Source: Bacteroidota bacterium
Lineage (GTDB): Bacteria > Bacteroidota > Bacteroidia > Chitinophagales > Chitinophagaceae
Assembly: GCA_018267915.1 (NCBI GenBank)
Contig: JAFDXN010000044.1
Location: 1 to 64,000, forward strand
Direction of reading: 5' to 3'
DNA: 64,000 nucleotides
Every line of letters starts with the position of its first letter. The first letter of the stretch is position 1. The translations under genes were made by a program, and so were the position numbers. Positions 21,526 to 56,230 of the stretch are shown one piece after another. The notes beneath the pieces are model-generated. The model saw only the letters and a list, made by a program, of their open reading frames with translations. It did not search any database and was not told where the DNA came from.

Positions 21526-22431
21526 TTAAATGCGGCTATTGTACACCAGCTTTGCAGCAACCGAGCTATTGCCCTGCAAGCCACCACTGTGTATACACAA
21601 CACGCTTGCATCGGGCCGGAAGAAATGCTCTTTGAGCATGTCATCTAAGGCAAACATCATTTTGGAAGTATAAACTATATCTAATGGAATATCATTCATT
21701 TCATAAAACGAGTTCATGAAATGAAGCAGGTCATCATTCCATTTACCAAAACCACCAAAATGCCAACGATCGAATAGCTGCCAATTGTCGTCCTGGTCGG
21801 CCCTCAGATGTTGAGCGATCTCATTTTCCAGATACCTGCCATTTTTCATTGGTGCGAAGCCCAACAGGTTTTGAGATACTGGCAGCGCGTTATGCAAACC
21901 AATGAAGGTGGTGCCGCTGCCAACAGACACTGCAACATGCGAATAACCTGAGGGTATAATGCGTGCTATTTCCTCCGCGCCCAGCCTACCCTGCTCATTC
22001 GCGCCTCCCTCCGGTATTATGAATGGGTCTCCAAACTGTGCAGCTATCGACCGCAGCCAGGCAGTATCATTCCTCCTGGCGTAATCTTCACGGGAGACAA
22101 AATGCAATTGCATGCCATATGCCGCACATTGTTTCAGCGTTTCGTTCAGTTCACCGCCATCATTGCCCCGTACAACGCCAAGGGCCTTTATGCCAAATTC
22201 ATTTGCCGCTGCTGCAGTTGCAATAAGATGATTGGAATAGGCTCCTCCAAATGTAAGGATCGTGCTATGCCCGTTATGCTGTGCATACTGAAGGTTATAC
22301 TTCAGCTTGTACCATTTATTACCGGAGACGACGGAGTCTATCAGGTCGAGCCTAAGCATATCTATTGCTGCGACCTTCCCGTCATACCATCCCTTATTCA
22401 ATGATTGTACTACTACTTTCGACTCATCCAT
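21526..22431 (-). CDS. ACC deaminase / D-cysteine desulfhydrase family PLP enzyme
   Basis: A 301-residue fold-type II PLP enzyme. SGNKWYKLKYN contains the PLP lysine (Lys39), and TFGGAYSNHL is the following cofactor-binding stretch with the catalytic Ser. VSVGSGTTFIG binds the phosphate. The family splits into 1-aminocyclopropane-1-carboxylate deaminases and D-cysteine desulfhydrases, which sequence alone separates poorly; in Bacteroidota the second is at least as likely. Its ATG overlaps the era stop by 8 nt (ATGGATGA), so translation is probably coupled. Confidence 0.85.
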   Translation of the reverse strand: MDESKVVVQSLNKGWYDGKVAAIDMLRLDLIDSVVSGNKWYKLKYNLQYAQHNGHSTILTFGGAYSNHLIATAAAANEFGIKALGVVRGNDGGELNETLKQCAAYGMQLHFVSREDYARRNDTAWLRSIAAQFGDPFIIPEGGANEQGRLGAEEIARIIPSGYSHVAVSVGSGTTFIGLHNALPVSQNLLGFAPMKNGRYLENEIAQHLRADQDDNWQLFDRWHFGGFGKWNDDLLHFMNSFYEMNDIPLDIVYTSKMMFALDDMLKEHFFRPDASVLCIHSGGLQGNSSVAAKLVYNSRI

Positions 22432-23311
22432 TATAGCCGTATTCTCGGAGGTAGGTATCGTTGTCGCGCCATTTGGGGCGCACTTTTACGAAGAGCTCAA
22501 GATGCACCTTTCGCTGCAGGAACTCCTCTATCTTTTTACGCGCATTGATGCCCAGCTGCTTGATCATGCTGCCGCCCTTGCCCACTATAATGCCTTTTTG
22601 CGTTTCCCGGCTCACTACTATCTCTGCTTTTATCACATCGAGCGTCTCTTTCTCTTCAAACGACTGGATAATGACGGCAGCGTGATAAGGGATCTCCTCG
22701 TGAAAGAGATTATATATTTCCTCACGTATCAACTCGCTTACGAAGAAGCGCACGGGCCTGTCAGACATACTGTCTTCGGGATAGTAAGAAGGTGCTTCGG
22801 GCAAATGCTGCAATATGAACGGTAGTATCTTATCAACGTTCGACTTAGTCTTTGCGGATACATGCAATATCTTCCAGCCGGGGAATTTCTCTGCATAGAG
22901 CTTAATCCTCTCGTCTATCTCCTTCTTATCTTTTAAAAGATCAGCCTTATTGAGCAACAATAAAGTGGGCACCTTCAGCTTTAGCATGTTGGCAACGATC
23001 TCCAATGCCTCGGCTGGCTCCGTGATGTCGTGCATCACCAATGCTACATCCCCATCTTCCAGTGCATTCTTCACTTGCTGCATCATGCGCTGGTGCAGCT
23101 TGTACTTAGGCTCAATGATGCCCGGAGTATCCGAGAACACTACCTGGTAATCCGGTTCTGTCAGGATACCCAATATGCGGTGACGGGTGGTTTGCACCTT
23201 ATGCGATGTAATAACCAGGTGCTCGCCCAGCAGGGCATTCAGCAAGGTGGACTTGCCCGCATTCGGCGGACCAAAAATGTTTACAAAACCTGATTTATGC
23301 GCTTCGGCCAT
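22424..23311 (-). CDS. era: GTPase Era
   Basis: A 295-residue ribosome assembly GTPase that binds 16S rRNA near its 3' end. G1 is GPPNAGKST, G3 SDTPGI, G4 LNKADLL, and the C-terminal KH domain shows GIIVGKGGSMIKQLG. The open frame extends 34 codons further upstream, but MAEAHKSGFVNIF is the family-like start (ATG at 23311). The stop overlaps the next gene by 8 nt. First gene of a minus-strand run down to 18089; no terminator is visible within it. Confidence 0.97.
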   Translation of the reverse strand: MAEAHKSGFVNIFGPPNAGKSTLLNALLGEHLVITSHKVQTTRHRILGILTEPDYQVVFSDTPGIIEPKYKLHQRMMQQVKNALEDGDVALVMHDITEPAEALEIVANMLKLKVPTLLLLNKADLLKDKKEIDERIKLYAEKFPGWKILHVSAKTKSNVDKILPFILQHLPEAPSYYPEDSMSDRPVRFFVSELIREEIYNLFHEEIPYHAAVIIQSFEEKETLDVIKAEIVVSRETQKGIIVGKGGSMIKQLGINARKKIEEFLQRKVHLELFVKVRPKWRDNDTYLREYGYNG

Positions 23312-50328: not shown

Positions 50329-50787
50329 ATGTTAGGCGATCTGAATGAAGAGGAAGTAGTAGAGATACTGCAGAATAATATAATAGGCCGTATTGGATGT
50401 ACTGACGGCAGCAATGTGTACGTAGTGCCTGTGAGCTATGTAATAGTGGATGGTAATGCCCTATGCCATTCGCATATGGGGATGAAGATAGAGATGATGA
50501 GAAGGAATCCGTCTGTATGCTTCGAAGTGGATGAAGTGCGAAGCTATAACGACTGGCGCTGTGTGATAGCATGGGGTACTTACACAGAACTAACGAATGA
50601 AGAAGAAATAAAACAAGCGAAATCGTATTTCTCTGAATACATGCTTGATATGAAGACGAGCAAAAATCCTTCATCGCCGGAAACGCAGGCAGAGCGCCAG
50701 CATGAAGGTATGGCATCGTTCGAAGTGCCGATATTCTACAAAATAGCCTTTACCAAGATAACGGGAAGGTTTGAAAAACAATCCTAG
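50329..50787 (+). CDS. Pyridoxamine 5'-phosphate oxidase-like FMN-binding protein
   Basis: A 152-residue split-barrel flavoprotein. GRIGCTDGSNVYVVPVSYV is the family N-terminal strand pair, SHMGMKIEMMRRNPSVCFEVDE binds FMN phosphate, and NDWRCVIAWGTYTEL follows. It is probably a flavin reductase or nitroreductase-like protein, not a true PdxH. ATG at 50329 is preferred to the TTG at 50308, which overlaps the promoter. Its last 4 bp overlap the convergent CoA-transferase gene. Confidence 0.88.
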   Translation: MLGDLNEEEVVEILQNNIIGRIGCTDGSNVYVVPVSYVIVDGNALCHSHMGMKIEMMRRNPSVCFEVDEVRSYNDWRCVIAWGTYTELTNEEEIKQAKSYFSEYMLDMKTSKNPSSPETQAERQHEGMASFEVPIFYKIAFTKITGRFEKQS

Positions 50788-52073
50788 TAACAAAGAGGCG
50801 TGCCGAACCGCTCGCGGGAGGCTCTTTCCAGTGTTTCTCTATGATCGGGGTGGGCAATACCGGTAAGCAGGCGGGCGCGCTGCTCCATATTTTTCCCATA
50901 CAGATTCACCACTCCATACTCTGTGGCTACATAATGCACATGGCCCCGTGTGGTGACCACGCCTGCGCCCTCCTTCAGGACAGGCACGATACGGGAAACG
51001 CCATGATTAGTAACAGATGGCATGGCAATAATTGGCTTACCACCATCAGAAAGAGAAGCCCCCCGCATGAAGTCCATTTGGCCTCCTATTCCGGAATATT
51101 GATAAGTGCCGATCGAATCCGCACAGACCTGGCCCGTAAGATCGATCTCAATAGCGCTATTGATAGCAACCACTTTAGGGTTGCTGCGGATGACGCTCGT
51201 GTCATTGACAAAGGACACATCCATGAGATTGACATAAGGATTGTCGTCTACAAAATCATAGACCTTGCGCGTGCCAAGTACAAATGAACTTATGATCTTG
51301 CCGGGTTCTACCTTTTTATACTCATTTGTGATCACGCCTTTCTCAACCAGGGGCACTACGCCATCGGAAAACATCTCCGTATGAATACCGAGTCCTTTAT
51401 GGCCCTTAAGCGCGGCAAGGACCGCATCTGGAATAGCACCAATGCCTAATTGCAACGTGGAACGGTCCTCAATAAGAGCCGCGACATTGCTACCGACCTT
51501 GCGGCTTATTTCATCGGCCTTGGCCGAATAGTCAAGCTCAATCAAGTCGGCTTCAGTCCATACCATGGCATTGATGGCCGATATGTGCAGGATGCCATCG
51601 CCGTGCACGCGAGGCATGCGGGGATTAACCTGGGCTATAACTGTTTTTGCATTCCGTACCGCGCTGAGCGCAGCATCGACGGATGTGCCGAGTGTACAGT
51701 AGCCATGCGCATCGGGCGGTGAAACATGAACGATAGCTACATCGAGCGGCAATATCTTCCTTTCAAAGAGTTGTGGTATCTCGCTGAGGAAGACCGGCAC
51801 ATAGTCACCGTGTTCACTATTGACCCAATCACGGACGTTGCCGGATACAAAGAGCGAATTGAGATAAAAGCTGTCGAGCACTTCCGGGCGATTCCAGTTT
51901 ACATCACCATAGGTACTAATGGATACTAATTCCACATTACGGAGTTCACTTGCTCTATCGAGCAATGCATTGAACAAAACAAGCGGTGTAGCAGCACTGC
52001 CATGAATAAAAACACGATCGCCGCTTTTAACGAGCGATACCGCATCCATGGCCGAAATATAAGTTGGTAACAT
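50784..52073 (-). CDS. Acetyl-CoA hydrolase / CoA-transferase
   Basis: A 429-residue family I CoA-transferase that moves CoA between acetyl (or another short acyl) and acetate or a dicarboxylate. GIHTEMFSDG contains the catalytic Glu near 231; GIGGQMDFMRGAS and VVTTRGHVHYVATEYGVV are conserved C-terminal motifs. It would act in overflow or fermentative acetate metabolism. Its promoter (TACTTTTG, 52081-52088 on the minus strand) mirrors that of the divergent hsp20 gene; start codon about 7 nt after it, so the leader is minimal. Confidence 0.92.
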   Translation of the reverse strand: MLPTYISAMDAVSLVKSGDRVFIHGSAATPLVLFNALLDRASELRNVELVSISTYGDVNWNRPEVLDSFYLNSLFVSGNVRDWVNSEHGDYVPVFLSEIPQLFERKILPLDVAIVHVSPPDAHGYCTLGTSVDAALSAVRNAKTVIAQVNPRMPRVHGDGILHISAINAMVWTEADLIELDYSAKADEISRKVGSNVAALIEDRSTLQLGIGAIPDAVLAALKGHKGLGIHTEMFSDGVVPLVEKGVITNEYKKVEPGKIISSFVLGTRKVYDFVDDNPYVNLMDVSFVNDTSVIRSNPKVVAINSAIEIDLTGQVCADSIGTYQYSGIGGQMDFMRGASLSDGGKPIIAMPSVTNHGVSRIVPVLKEGAGVVTTRGHVHYVATEYGVVNLYGKNMEQRARLLTGIAHPDHRETLERASRERFGTPLCY

Positions 52074-52080
52074 AGTAACA

Positions 52081-52176
52081 CAAAAGTATCACAGCGGGCA
52101 TGCAAGGACATTGATGAAAGTCACAATAATGGCTGACCATAGTCATTTACAGTCATGAAAGGGCAGGATACTTTTG
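52081..52176. promoter_or_regulatory. Mirror-symmetric divergent promoter pair with two Crp/Fnr-type boxes
   Basis: The -7 elements are identical: TACTTTTG on the minus strand at 52081-52088 (CoA-transferase) and on the + strand at 52169-52176 (hsp20). Between them stand TTGAT-GAAA-GTCAC (52111-52124) and CTGAC-CATA-GTCAT (52133-52146), both close to the Crp/Fnr half-site pattern TTGA(T/C)-N4-(G/A)TCAA. Their centres (52117.5, 52139.5) are 22 bp apart, and each lies 29.5 bp from the nearer -7 element, about -41 from the expected start. Neither promoter has a good -33 element, as expected for activator-dependent promoters. Confidence 0.6.
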
Positions 52177-52214
52177 ACCTGAAATTGAAAACAAATATTC
52201 AACACACTTAGAAA

Positions 52215-52221
52215 AAGGAGG
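52215..52221 (+). promoter_or_regulatory. Strong Shine-Dalgarno before hsp20 (second copy)
   Basis: AAGGAGG, five nt before the ATG at 52227. Such a full Shine-Dalgarno is uncommon in this phylum and no other gene in the window has one this good. Confidence 0.7.
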
Positions 52222-52226
52222 ATCAT

Positions 52227-52667
52227 ATGTCACTCAAATCACTGCTAAGGGCAAACAGCTCTTTCCCCGAAACGATCAACGATTTATTTAAACCAATGAA
52301 CGAATGGCTGGACGATGCGTTCTGGAACAAGCCAATGTTATCGCCGGCGGTGAACATTTCTGAAAGCGACAAAGAGTACACCATGACGGTGGCTGCACCG
52401 GGAATGAAAAAAGATGACTTTAAAGTGGACGTAGAAAACGGCACATTGAGCATTAGCGCGAAAATCGAGGAAAACAAAGAAGAGAAAGAAAAAAACTACA
52501 CCCGCAAGGAGTACAATTATTCGTCATTCTCACGCTCGTTCAGCATACCAGAGAGCGTAAAAGAAGACCAAATAGAGGCCAGCTATAATAACGGTGTACT
52601 GACGCTGACATTGCCTAAGGAAGAGACAAAAACAAAGAAAAACGGAAAATCGATAGCGGTTAAATAA
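52227..52667 (+). CDS. Small heat-shock protein Hsp20 (second copy)
   Basis: A 146-residue alpha-crystallin chaperone. The domain (about 42-138) starts PAVNISESDKEYTMTV, includes APGMKKDDFKVDVENG and ends with NNGVLTLTLPKEE; the C-terminal tail is Lys-rich. It differs clearly from the copy at 35872. It has a strong Shine-Dalgarno and lies under the divergent Crp/Fnr-type promoter shared with the CoA-transferase gene, so it is likely induced by oxygen limitation or stress instead of by heat alone. A terminator follows, then a universal stress protein gene. Confidence 0.95.
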   Translation: MSLKSLLRANSSFPETINDLFKPMNEWLDDAFWNKPMLSPAVNISESDKEYTMTVAAPGMKKDDFKVDVENGTLSISAKIEENKEEKEKNYTRKEYNYSSFSRSFSIPESVKEDQIEASYNNGVLTLTLPKEETKTKKNGKSIAVK

Positions 52668-52686
52668 GCCGTAACGAAGAGAACGG

Positions 52687-52724
52687 CAAGCCCCTGCCGC
52701 AAGGGCGGGGGCTTGTTTTATTTA
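52687..52724 (+). terminator. Terminator of hsp20 (second copy)
   Basis: CAAGCCCC (52687-52694) pairs with GGGGCTTG (52708-52715), followed by TTTTATTTAT. Confidence 0.85.
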
Positions 52725-52760: not shown

Positions 52761-53573
52761 ATGAAAAAAATATTAGTGGTATTTGACGGCTACAACTTTT
52801 CCCCGGCAGCGCTTGACTTCGTACAAAGCCTGTCGCTAAATGGATCTTTCCTGCTAACCGGTGTATTCCTGAGCTCTATAGACTATAAGGTGTTACTCGG
52901 CTATCCATTTGCATCTCCCAGCTATATCACCGCAGTTGAGTATGACAATGACCTGTTCGTTAAGAACGTGGCTTACTTCAAAAGCTATTGCGAGAGGAAC
53001 GGTCTGGAATACAGGGTACACGACGACCTTGGTGGCGAAGCGCTGAACACCTTAAAAAAGGAGACTCGCTTTGCCGACACCTTAATACTGGGAAGCGAGA
53101 CTTTCTTTAAAGATGTGGAACTTAACACCCCTGGAGAATACCTGAAAGAGATCTTACACGATGCGGAATGTCCGGTGTTGCTTTTGCCGGAAAATTGCCC
53201 CTTCCCCGAAAGGATCGTTCTGAGCTACGACGGATCGAGGCAATCGATGTATGCGCTAAAACAATTTGCTTATGTGTTCCCCGAACTGTGCAATAAAGAA
53301 ACATTGCTGGTATATGGCAGCACTGAGGACGAAGAGCTACCGAACATAGACCTGCTTGAAGAGTTTGCGGGCAGGCACTACAGCAATCTTACGCTTATGA
53401 AGCTGGACCTGGACCCGAAAGTATATTTCGACACCTGGCTCGTCAACCATAAAAATGCGCTGGTTGTATCAGGGGCTTATGGACGTTCAGGTGCATCGAT
53501 GCTCTTTAAACACAGTTTTATGAACGAAATAATAAAGGAGCATCAACTGCCCTTGTTGATCGCGCATACCTGA
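52761..53573 (+). CDS. Universal stress protein (two UspA domains)
   Basis: A 270-residue protein starting MKKILVVFDGYN; the frame runs 16 codons further upstream, but this ATG is family-like. It contains two UspA folds: residues 1-140, ending DAECPVLLLPE, and about 150-270, with IVLSYDGSRQ and the C-terminal VVSGAYGRSGASMLFKHS, which resembles the ATP-binding G-x2-G-x9-G-S/T motif. Usp proteins support survival under starvation, hypoxia and oxidative stress. It lies 93 bp behind hsp20; the terminator between them may be partly read through. Confidence 0.9.
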   Translation: MKKILVVFDGYNFSPAALDFVQSLSLNGSFLLTGVFLSSIDYKVLLGYPFASPSYITAVEYDNDLFVKNVAYFKSYCERNGLEYRVHDDLGGEALNTLKKETRFADTLILGSETFFKDVELNTPGEYLKEILHDAECPVLLLPENCPFPERIVLSYDGSRQSMYALKQFAYVFPELCNKETLLVYGSTEDEELPNIDLLEEFAGRHYSNLTLMKLDLDPKVYFDTWLVNHKNALVVSGAYGRSGASMLFKHSFMNEIIKEHQLPLLIAHT

Positions 53574-53606
53574 TATAACAATTTCGCCTCAACAATTACC
53601 TTGAAT

Positions 53607-54860
53607 ATGGTCATCCGCCGCCTCGCAAGCATCGTAACAATATTGCTTTTAGGCTCCTGCATTACGAAAAGCAGAGCCGATGAGCGACTAATACGCCCAC
53701 AACTTACAAACCGGTTCTACACTATGGGTGAGAACCGGCTGATCTGGACCGGACCTGATGCAAATTCGGAAAGGCTTAGAGCAGAATTGATTGAATGGAT
53801 AGACAGCGCGGCTAGTTTCGGTTTGGATAAGGATGATTATCACTATAGCTATATAACGCGGGAGCTACGGCTGTATAATGACATCGGTGCGGACAAAATA
53901 TTTACAGATGCGGTTCTCTCCCTTGCGGCAGATATCTACATGGGCAAAATGCAAGGTAACATGCTAGGATATGATGGCGTGAAGCCACGCTACCAGGCAA
54001 GGCAGGAAGAATACTTGCTGAAGAGCCTGCTAAAGGTACAGGATGTAGGTAGCCTGCATAATTTTCTTAGTTTACTTGAACCGGCCAACCAGGACTACTT
54101 GTTGTTAAAACAGGAGCTTGCCACCCAAAGGAAAGCAAAGGCAGGCAGGAAAGTCGATATGCTCGAAATGTCTCTGAACTATTACCGGAAGATCCATAAC
54201 TATCATTTCAAACAATGCATTGTGGTCAATATCTGCAATGCATCGCTCAACTACTACGAGAATGAAAAGGTGATGCTGAACATGAAAGTGGTGGTGGGCA
54301 AGCCAAAGACAAAGACGCCCAGATTTACCGCCTTTTGCTATGAGGCCATCATGTATCCTTACTGGAACGTACCTGCCAGTATTGCGGTAAAAGAGATACT
54401 GCCCAAATACCGGCGCAACAAGGCTGCGCTCAACGCACTCAACCTGCAGGTGGTGGATAGCCGCGGCCATGTGATGGATCCATCGGTGCTTGCAGGCGGC
54501 CTGGCCGGCTATCGCCTCAGGCAATCGACTGGATGTGACAACGCCCTTGGAGTATTGAAGTTCAATATCTCGGACCCATACAGCGTTTACATGCACGATA
54601 CCGACTATAAAAATGCGTTCAAGCTAAAAAAGCGGTATTTAAGTCACGGCTGCATCCGCCTTGAAAAACCACTGGAACTGAGCGACTACCTGCTACCGGG
54701 CAAGATCAATAAATCGCTACTCCAGGCCTGCGTAAGATCTCAAACACCAACGACAGTAAAAATAGCCGATCCTGTACCTGTGTTTGTAATATATATGCCG
54801 GCCGATGTGGAAAATGGGGCTGTGGCGTATTATGAGGATATCTATCATATCCTGAAATAA
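53607..54860 (+). CDS. L,D-transpeptidase (YcbB-like), lipoprotein
   Basis: A 417-residue periplasmic enzyme anchored by lipid (lipobox LGSC). The N-terminal part (about 30-190) looks like the helical scaffold of YcbB/LdtD enzymes (LIWTGPDANSERLRAEL, FGLDKDDYHY), and the C-terminal YkuD domain holds the catalytic site SHGCIRLE with Cys near 349 and His in VYMHDTD. It forms 3-3 peptidoglycan crosslinks or attaches proteins. ATG at 53607 is preferred to a TTG two codons upstream. A paralogue follows 68 bp downstream. Confidence 0.9.
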   Translation: MVIRRLASIVTILLLGSCITKSRADERLIRPQLTNRFYTMGENRLIWTGPDANSERLRAELIEWIDSAASFGLDKDDYHYSYITRELRLYNDIGADKIFTDAVLSLAADIYMGKMQGNMLGYDGVKPRYQARQEEYLLKSLLKVQDVGSLHNFLSLLEPANQDYLLLKQELATQRKAKAGRKVDMLEMSLNYYRKIHNYHFKQCIVVNICNASLNYYENEKVMLNMKVVVGKPKTKTPRFTAFCYEAIMYPYWNVPASIAVKEILPKYRRNKAALNALNLQVVDSRGHVMDPSVLAGGLAGYRLRQSTGCDNALGVLKFNISDPYSVYMHDTDYKNAFKLKKRYLSHGCIRLEKPLELSDYLLPGKINKSLLQACVRSQTPTTVKIADPVPVFVIYMPADVENGAVAYYEDIYHILK

Positions 54861-54928: not shown

Positions 54929-56230
54929 ATGACAGGATCTGCCTCGCTACATATTCGGAAAAGTCTGAAGTTACTGATCATCTATTTTGGTGCATTATGG
55001 AGTGGCGTATGTGCATCGCCGCGAGCGGTAGCAGAAACATTGCGCTATCCTCAACTGGTAGATAAGTTTTATACGGCCAATTCAAACAATCTCATATGGA
55101 CAAGTACCGGCTCCGACGCTCAACGGTTACGAGCTGAACTGGCAGGAATGCTTGACAACGCCGCCAAACTGGGGCTTGATAAACAGAAATATCATTACCA
55201 ATATATAAGGGGCGCACCGGATGTGGCGAACGATATGGAAGTCGACCGTGTGTTCACAGACGCTGCAATTGCAATGCTGAAGGATATATATGCCGGTAAT
55301 CTTGGAGAGGAACTGATGGAATACGACGAAGTAAATAGTAAACACCAGCAAAGTGAAGCAGACTATATAGTGAATAAACTAGCAAGAGTACAGACGGCTG
55401 AACAACTGGAAACCCTGGCGCAAGCTTTGGAACCGGATGATGAAAACTATAAGGTGCTTAAAGGAGAACTTAGTCAACAAATAGCTAGCGGCGCCACCGG
55501 CAAAGTGCGGGCATTGAACGTCGCAGTCAACTACTACCGCAGGGTGCACCATTACAAGTTTGACCAGTACGTGCTGGTGAATATCTGTAAAGCGATGCTG
55601 ACATACTACCAAAATGGTGTGCCCGCCCTTGAGATGAAGGTTGTAGTTGGTAAACCCACAAAAATGACACCCAGGTTCAGCGCATATTGTTACGAAGAAG
55701 TAATGTATCCCTACTGGAACGTGCCCGATGACATAGGCACCGGGGAGATACTTCCGGATGTGAAGCGCAACAGCGCCAGGCTCAGGGCCCTCCATATGGA
55801 AGTGATAGATAACAGCGGAAAGGCTGTAAACCCCGCAACGATTAAATGGGCCGACTACAGCAAGAACAATTTTCCTTACAGGTTCCGGCAGAAGACCGGA
55901 TGCTTTAACTCGCTGGGGGTATTGAAATTCAATATTTCCGATCCCTTTAGCGTCTACATGCACGATACCGATTATAAAGGGGCCTTTAAACTCAGCAAAC
56001 GCTACCTGAGCCATGGATGCATAAGGCTGGAAAAGCCATTGGAACTGGGCGATTTGCTGCTGCCGGGACAAATCGACGGCGAACTTTTAAAACAATGCCT
56101 GACAGGCCAGGAGCCAACTACAATAAAACTGGCGGAGCCGGTGCCGGTATTTGCCGTATATATGCCGGTGGGGGTACAAAACGGGCAGGTGGTATATTAC
56201 CCGGATGTGTACAAGCTATTAGCCAATTAA
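54929..56230 (+). CDS. L,D-transpeptidase (YcbB-like), paralogue of the preceding gene
   Basis: A 433-residue protein with the same layout: signal or anchor segment (about 10-30), helical scaffold (about 40-205), and YkuD domain with SHGCIRLE (Cys near 364). Long blocks are shared with the upstream copy, such as MYPYWNVP, LGVLKFNISDP, YMHDTDYK and the ends, so the pair is a tandem duplication. The N-terminus lacks a lipobox, so this copy may be membrane-anchored or soluble. A terminator for the facing tRNA-Arg lies at its stop. Confidence 0.9.
   Translation: MTGSASLHIRKSLKLLIIYFGALWSGVCASPRAVAETLRYPQLVDKFYTANSNNLIWTSTGSDAQRLRAELAGMLDNAAKLGLDKQKYHYQYIRGAPDVANDMEVDRVFTDAAIAMLKDIYAGNLGEELMEYDEVNSKHQQSEADYIVNKLARVQTAEQLETLAQALEPDDENYKVLKGELSQQIASGATGKVRALNVAVNYYRRVHHYKFDQYVLVNICKAMLTYYQNGVPALEMKVVVGKPTKMTPRFSAYCYEEVMYPYWNVPDDIGTGEILPDVKRNSARLRALHMEVIDNSGKAVNPATIKWADYSKNNFPYRFRQKTGCFNSLGVLKFNISDPFSVYMHDTDYKGAFKLSKRYLSHGCIRLEKPLELGDLLLPGQIDGELLKQCLTGQEPTTIKLAEPVPVFAVYMPVGVQNGQVVYYPDVYKLLAN

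Follow-up and report, generated by a model that had tools for sequence, protein, structure and literature searches.

The window (the whole stretch of DNA analysed here, 64 kb in length) carries two divergent genes, an acetyl-CoA hydrolase/CoA-transferase family gene on the minus strand (429 aa; 50784..52073) and the small heat-shock protein gene hsp20 on the plus strand (146 aa; 52227..52667). The -7 element of the CoA-transferase promoter, TACTTTTG, lies at 52081..52088 on the minus strand, so that the top strand reads its reverse complement, CAAAAGTA; the -7 element of the hsp20 promoter is again TACTTTTG (52169..52176, plus strand). Transcription start sites (TSSs) are predicted at ~52076 and ~52181, respectively. 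These outward-facing TAnnTTTG elements flank two boxes, box A (TGATGAAAGTCA; 52112..52123) and box B (TGACCATAGTCA; 52134..52145), of the form TGAT-N4-GTCA and TGAC-N4-GTCA. A 10-bp spacer (52124..52133) sets the box period at 22 bp from start to start, or two DNA turns. On either side, 23 bp separate a box from its nearer -7 element, and the box centre stands 29.5 bp away from that element's first base. Positions relative to the predicted TSSs were computed from the placement of the Bacteroidota -7 box, which spans -12 to -5 (PMC9723704). On this basis, box A is predicted to be centred at -41.5 for the CoA-transferase promoter and at -63.5 for hsp20, and box B at -41.5 for hsp20 and at -63.5 for the CoA-transferase promoter. 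A weak, T-rich, -33-like stretch, TTTAC, lies directly 3' of box B (52146..52150, plus strand). Our results thus agree with the initial annotation of this DNA, which had described a mirror-symmetric divergent promoter with two boxes at the class II activator position and poor -33 elements.

A Shine-Dalgarno-like sequence, AAAAAGGAGG, precedes hsp20 (52212..52221, plus strand). The ATG of the CoA-transferase gene (52073) is only ~3 nt from the predicted TSS (52076; ~0-1 nt in the sister genome G002), and its mRNA would therefore be nearly leaderless. Behind hsp20 follows a universal-stress-like gene, usp (52761..53573, plus strand), which owes its name to the initial annotation and whose product had no Pfam or NCBIfam match at 1e-5. 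The suggestion that usp is driven jointly with hsp20 was not borne out: a strong intrinsic terminator (14-bp stem and U-rich tail; 52685..52717, plus strand) intervenes, and usp has no box pair of its own at this locus. Further downstream lie two neighbouring, clearly related genes (53601-54860 and 54929-56230), an apparent tandem duplication, whose products look by eye like L,D-transpeptidases (YLSHGCIRLEKPLEL motif).

From base composition, 0.0003 exact box pairs are expected in 64 kb, and 2e-11 when both -7 elements at 23 bp are included; no second convincing pair was found in the window. In G002, the 31/22/35 bp spacing is the same as here. The alignment showed that mainly CAAAAGTA, TTGA..AA..TCA, TTGACC..GGTCATTTAC, TA.TTTTG, and AAAAGGAGG are fixed; that is, the -7 elements, the box arms, TTTAC, and the Shine-Dalgarno sequence are kept, while most spacer sequence has changed, including that between the boxes, where length is kept and sequence is not. 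G002 also carries a one-mismatch pair between hsp20 and the following 270-aa gene.

Recurrence and spacing of the box pair

To describe the pair in other genomes, we used the 34-bp pattern TGAY-N4-RTCA-N10-TGAY-N4-RTCA, with the reversed pattern as the control. Of 197 genomes in the family, 121 had it, with 361 forward sites compared with 4 for the reversed control. When spacers of 0-30 bp were allowed in ten genomes, 75 pairs had the 10-bp spacer versus 29 over all other spacers, as tallied from the listed places. The 53 pairs examined for location were nearly all intergenic, and among their 106 sides TAnnTTTG lay exactly 23 bp from the box in 19 with no mismatch (0-1 at other offsets) and in 46 with at most one mismatch (0-3 at other offsets). 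Six of these 53 pairs had a -7 element on both sides with at most one mismatch, and those with none were this locus and its G002 counterpart. Runs of three or four boxes with a strict 22-bp period were seen at G179:C333:5122-5199 and G019:C2:2518584-2518639, which suggests room for more than two dimers in a row.

With regard to the half-site, it reads TGAY; conservation extends neither to the outer T of FNR nor to the TG of CRP. Among oriented boxes, only 17% of the distal and 17% of the proximal ones have a T before TGAY, and an A follows RTCA in 22% (distal) and 7% (proximal). The initial annotation had called the boxes Crp/Fnr-type; the palindromes are indeed of this kind, but the FNR consensus TTGAT-N4-ATCAA does not describe them. 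Since the outer T/A is not conserved, the search that it proposed, TTGAY-N4-RTCAA (TTGAYNNNNRTCAA), misses the signal and was uninformative genome-wide (20 matches versus 16 for the control). A TGAY box tied to a -7 element gave 13 matches versus 1 control match. Several single-box matches in the own genome (L035, L037, L040, L044, and L045) lie inside open reading frames, have no partner box, and were taken as chance. Both boxes had also been recognised in the initial annotation, although singly, whereas they form one operator with a fixed 22-bp spacing.

The Pfam families tallied among genes adjoining pairs were HSP20, acetyl-CoA hydrolase/transferase, E1-E2 (FixI-type) ATPases, and Usp, together with Rrf2, hemerythrin, ScdA, Crp, and NiFe-hydrogenase families. 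A pair plus a -7 element precedes 10 of the 18 hsp20 genes of the family, compared with 0 in 300 shuffles. On contig C26 of the own genome, ccoNO (fused COX1-FixO) and the FixI-type ATPase operon each have upstream a pair with a -7 element at 23 bp (one and two mismatches), in keeping with the low-oxygen theme of the initial annotation. A further mirror-symmetric promoter of the paired kind, flanked on each side by TACTTTTG, was found at L099:12139-12172 (G000:C24, ~168139), ahead of a gene for an OmpA-like lipoprotein and of a small ORF. In two species of the genus, a pair also separates divergently oriented genes for an MlaE permease and a P-type cation ATPase (L103:5869-5902, G000:C3:93868, in the own genome, and L104:12440, G003:C53). 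The surrounding region of the latter (G003:C53:10000-29999) holds several pairs close together, with PagL-like, baeRF3, hsp20, FtsH-like protease, and P-type ATPase genes, and is reminiscent of a stress-regulon island.

A receiver-Crp fusion associated with the pair

Four proteins with cNMP domains are encoded in the own genome. One of them, 351 aa long, is a fusion protein that joins Response_reg, cNMP_binding, and HTH_Crp_2 domains (C26:53410-54462), and its gene adjoins that of a PAS histidine kinase, near ccoNO/FixI. The phospho-acceptor Asp of the receiver domain is conserved in a CDIMMP-type motif. The own-genome fusion has no N-terminal cysteine cluster, its only Cys being that of the VCDIMM motif, and its recognition helix reads GTAKESLIRTLSDF. 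Read by eye, its CNB domain (GEFLGYVAMLENSTYKETAEA) lacks the RS pair found in cAMP sites, as would fit a protein controlled by phosphorylation and not by cAMP. No NCBIfam model scored above cut-off for the fusion; CNB domains joined to CheY-like receivers were noted in a 2007 survey, with no function given (PMC2246266).

A histidine-kinase gene lies upstream of the fusion gene in 28 of 30 and in 75 of 80 loci. The PAS domain of the own-genome kinase matched FixL best (PDB 1d06, 3.4e-14), and DosP was matched as well. The heme-ligand (proximal) His of FixL is aligned in this homologous domain, but the regulatory Arg of FixL is replaced by Met; given this replacement, and because a His at the heme position is possible in other PAS domains, heme is not assured.

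The remaining cNMP proteins include two with diverged recognition helices and a Crp-family protein (C57:22545-22805, HTH 22263-22439; L095:7231-7869) with an FNR-like E-xx-S-R helix. The promoter of the latter has a single box 23 bp from the -7 element. Its gene adjoins MBL-rhodanese, rhodanese, and TauE-like genes, and the protein looks like a sulphur-compound regulator.

The pair follows the fusion across genomes. A full-length fusion was present in 140 of the 197 family genomes, and these held 343 pairs (110 genomes with a pair), compared with 18 pairs (11 genomes) in the 57 without it. Within the 19 genera having both states, fusion genomes were richer in pairs in 13 and poorer in none, with 6 ties (p=1.2e-4); kinship was corrected for by genus only, and the co-occurrence counts were copied by hand from search tables. 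In a phylum-wide sample, pairs occurred in 28 of 43 genomes with the fusion versus 10 of 253 without (p=3e-20). Nonetheless, the correlation is imperfect, considering that 15 of the 43 lack the exact pair and that some pairs occur without a fusion.

Pairs also cluster around the fusion gene. In 463 kb surrounding it (80 separately fetched named records; at most one mismatch; spacers of 4-24 bp tested), 45 pairs had the 10-bp spacer versus 0-3 for each other spacer, and 38 of these 45 had a -7 element at 23 bp. The genes that these pairs would drive include members of the Usp, HSP20, acetyl-CoA hydrolase/transferase, glutamyl-tRNA reductase, and FixI-type families, and at four of the 80 loci the operon behind the pair is that of the kinase. 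An hsp20 gene lies less than 10 kb from the fusion gene in 11 family genomes, and within ~0.5 kb in six.

Regulator and signal

That the boxes are palindromes arisen by chance next to two ordinary promoters is extremely improbable. Only the shortness of the motif speaks for chance; against it are the small number of exact pairs expected in the window, the conservation of the pair in G002, and the reversed-pattern controls, which were near zero across hundreds of genomes. Judged from these sequence comparisons, the paired-box layout of the divergent promoter is real. A quite unlikely reading is that an ordinary stand-alone Crp/Fnr protein, either a [4Fe-4S] FNR or the C57 Crp of the own genome, binds the pair and that the fusion merely co-occurs. 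This would be consistent with the presence of a stand-alone Crp homologue (an open frame of 235-259 aa) in all nine searched genomes that bear pairs and lack the fusion (G036, G094, G108, G115, G128, G154, G164, G192, and G220). In the three that were read (G094, G128, and G164), this protein has an N-terminal CxxC-x8-C motif and a helix, GTATExxIRLLSEF, almost like that of the fusion. Given these FNR-type cysteines and the near-identical helix, FNR is the probable reader of this box in those species, and FNR would probably share the site wherever a species has it. The own genome, however, has no such FNR among its four cNMP proteins, and besides the fusion only the C57 protein has an E-xx-S-R helix. 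That pair numbers go with the fusion within genera, and that pairs cluster around its gene, also argues against a stand-alone regulator.

It is somewhat unlikely that the receiver-Crp system is right and that it responds, instead of to oxygen, to nitric oxide, to the redox state, or to some other ligand of the PAS domain; as this reading only modifies the explanation that we prefer, the two overlap in probability. Hemerythrin/ScdA-type, Rrf2, and globin genes beside pairs, which are linked to nitric oxide and iron-sulphur damage, point in this direction, as does the replacement of the regulatory Arg of FixL by Met. On the other hand, the genes with a pair in front of them include those for ccoNO, FixI, and glutamyl-tRNA reductase, which together form a microaerobic set. 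Together with the FixL-like PAS domain, the target genes support low oxygen as the signal.

We return to the explanation that we prefer, in which the locus is likely a bidirectional, activator-dependent class II promoter belonging to a low-oxygen regulon of the receiver-Crp fusion and its FixL-like PAS kinase. The initial annotation had named a Crp/Fnr-type regulator; the family appears correct, but a free Crp/Fnr protein is less likely than the fusion with its kinase. Two Crp-type dimers would bind side by side, two helical turns (22 bp) apart, each in contact with RNA polymerase at its own promoter (position -41.5) and placed at -63.5 of the opposite one, and the bound dimers would stand in for the weak -33 elements. 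As to the regulator, the receiver-cNMP-HTH_Crp fusion is the most likely candidate, and it would be phosphorylated by the adjacent PAS histidine kinase. Once phosphorylated, probably at low oxygen and perhaps with heme as the sensor, the fusion would switch on cbb3 oxidase, FixI, hemerythrin-type proteins, hsp20, and the CoA-transferase. It is also possible, at somewhat less than even odds, that a large branch of the Bacteroidota (Chitinophagales and Cytophagales) has a one-step FixL-like kinase/receiver-Crp system in which a dimer pair is held at an obligatory 22 bp, receivers bridge the dimers, phosphorylation controls their cooperative occupancy, and mirror pairs switch two divergent operons.

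Known systems and implications for Bacteroidota

Class II Crp/Fnr promoters have a palindromic TGA-N6-TCA at -41.5 and a weak upstream core element, as is the case here relative to the predicted TSSs. They differ in that here a second box is fixed 22 bp upstream, the -7 element is the Bacteroidota TAnnTTTG, and two promoters share one pair in mirror image. The rhizobial FixL-FixJ-FixK2 cascade (fixNOQP/fixGHIS) is alike in its PAS kinase, its Crp-type end regulator, and its cbb3 oxidase and FixI targets, but here receiver and Crp are joined in one 351-aa protein, with no LuxR-type FixJ step and with paired boxes. The [4Fe-4S] FNR of E. coli reads the same box family, with N4 between half-sites, and stand-alone relatives in some genomes keep its N-terminal cysteines; the regulator proposed here, in contrast, is without this cysteine cluster, and the paired boxes do not keep the outer T of TTGAT. 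In Mycobacterium tuberculosis, hsp20 (hspX) and usp genes of the DosR regulon are turned on at low oxygen via heme kinases, but DosR is LuxR-type, and neither the regulator nor its site is known to be homologous to those described here.

In the literature covered, judged by title and abstract and with most subscription journals outside it, we found no account of the pair, of a receiver-Crp system, or of such a regulon in Bacteroidota. The parts are of known kinds (class II Crp promoters and FixL-type kinases); their combination, with a receiver-Crp fusion, an obligatory 22-bp pair, and mirror promoters, may be new relative to that literature. The cells probably turn on a low-oxygen gene set in a way that the literature covered does not describe. 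Combined with a -7 element at 23 bp, the 34-bp pair provides a signature for recognising a probable low-oxygen regulon in the genomes of a phylum about whose regulation little is known. This signature is in turn connected with a kinase/receiver-Crp system that is as yet uncharacterised. Given the fixed spacing, one may ask whether the receiver domains bring about cooperation between neighbouring Crp-type dimers.
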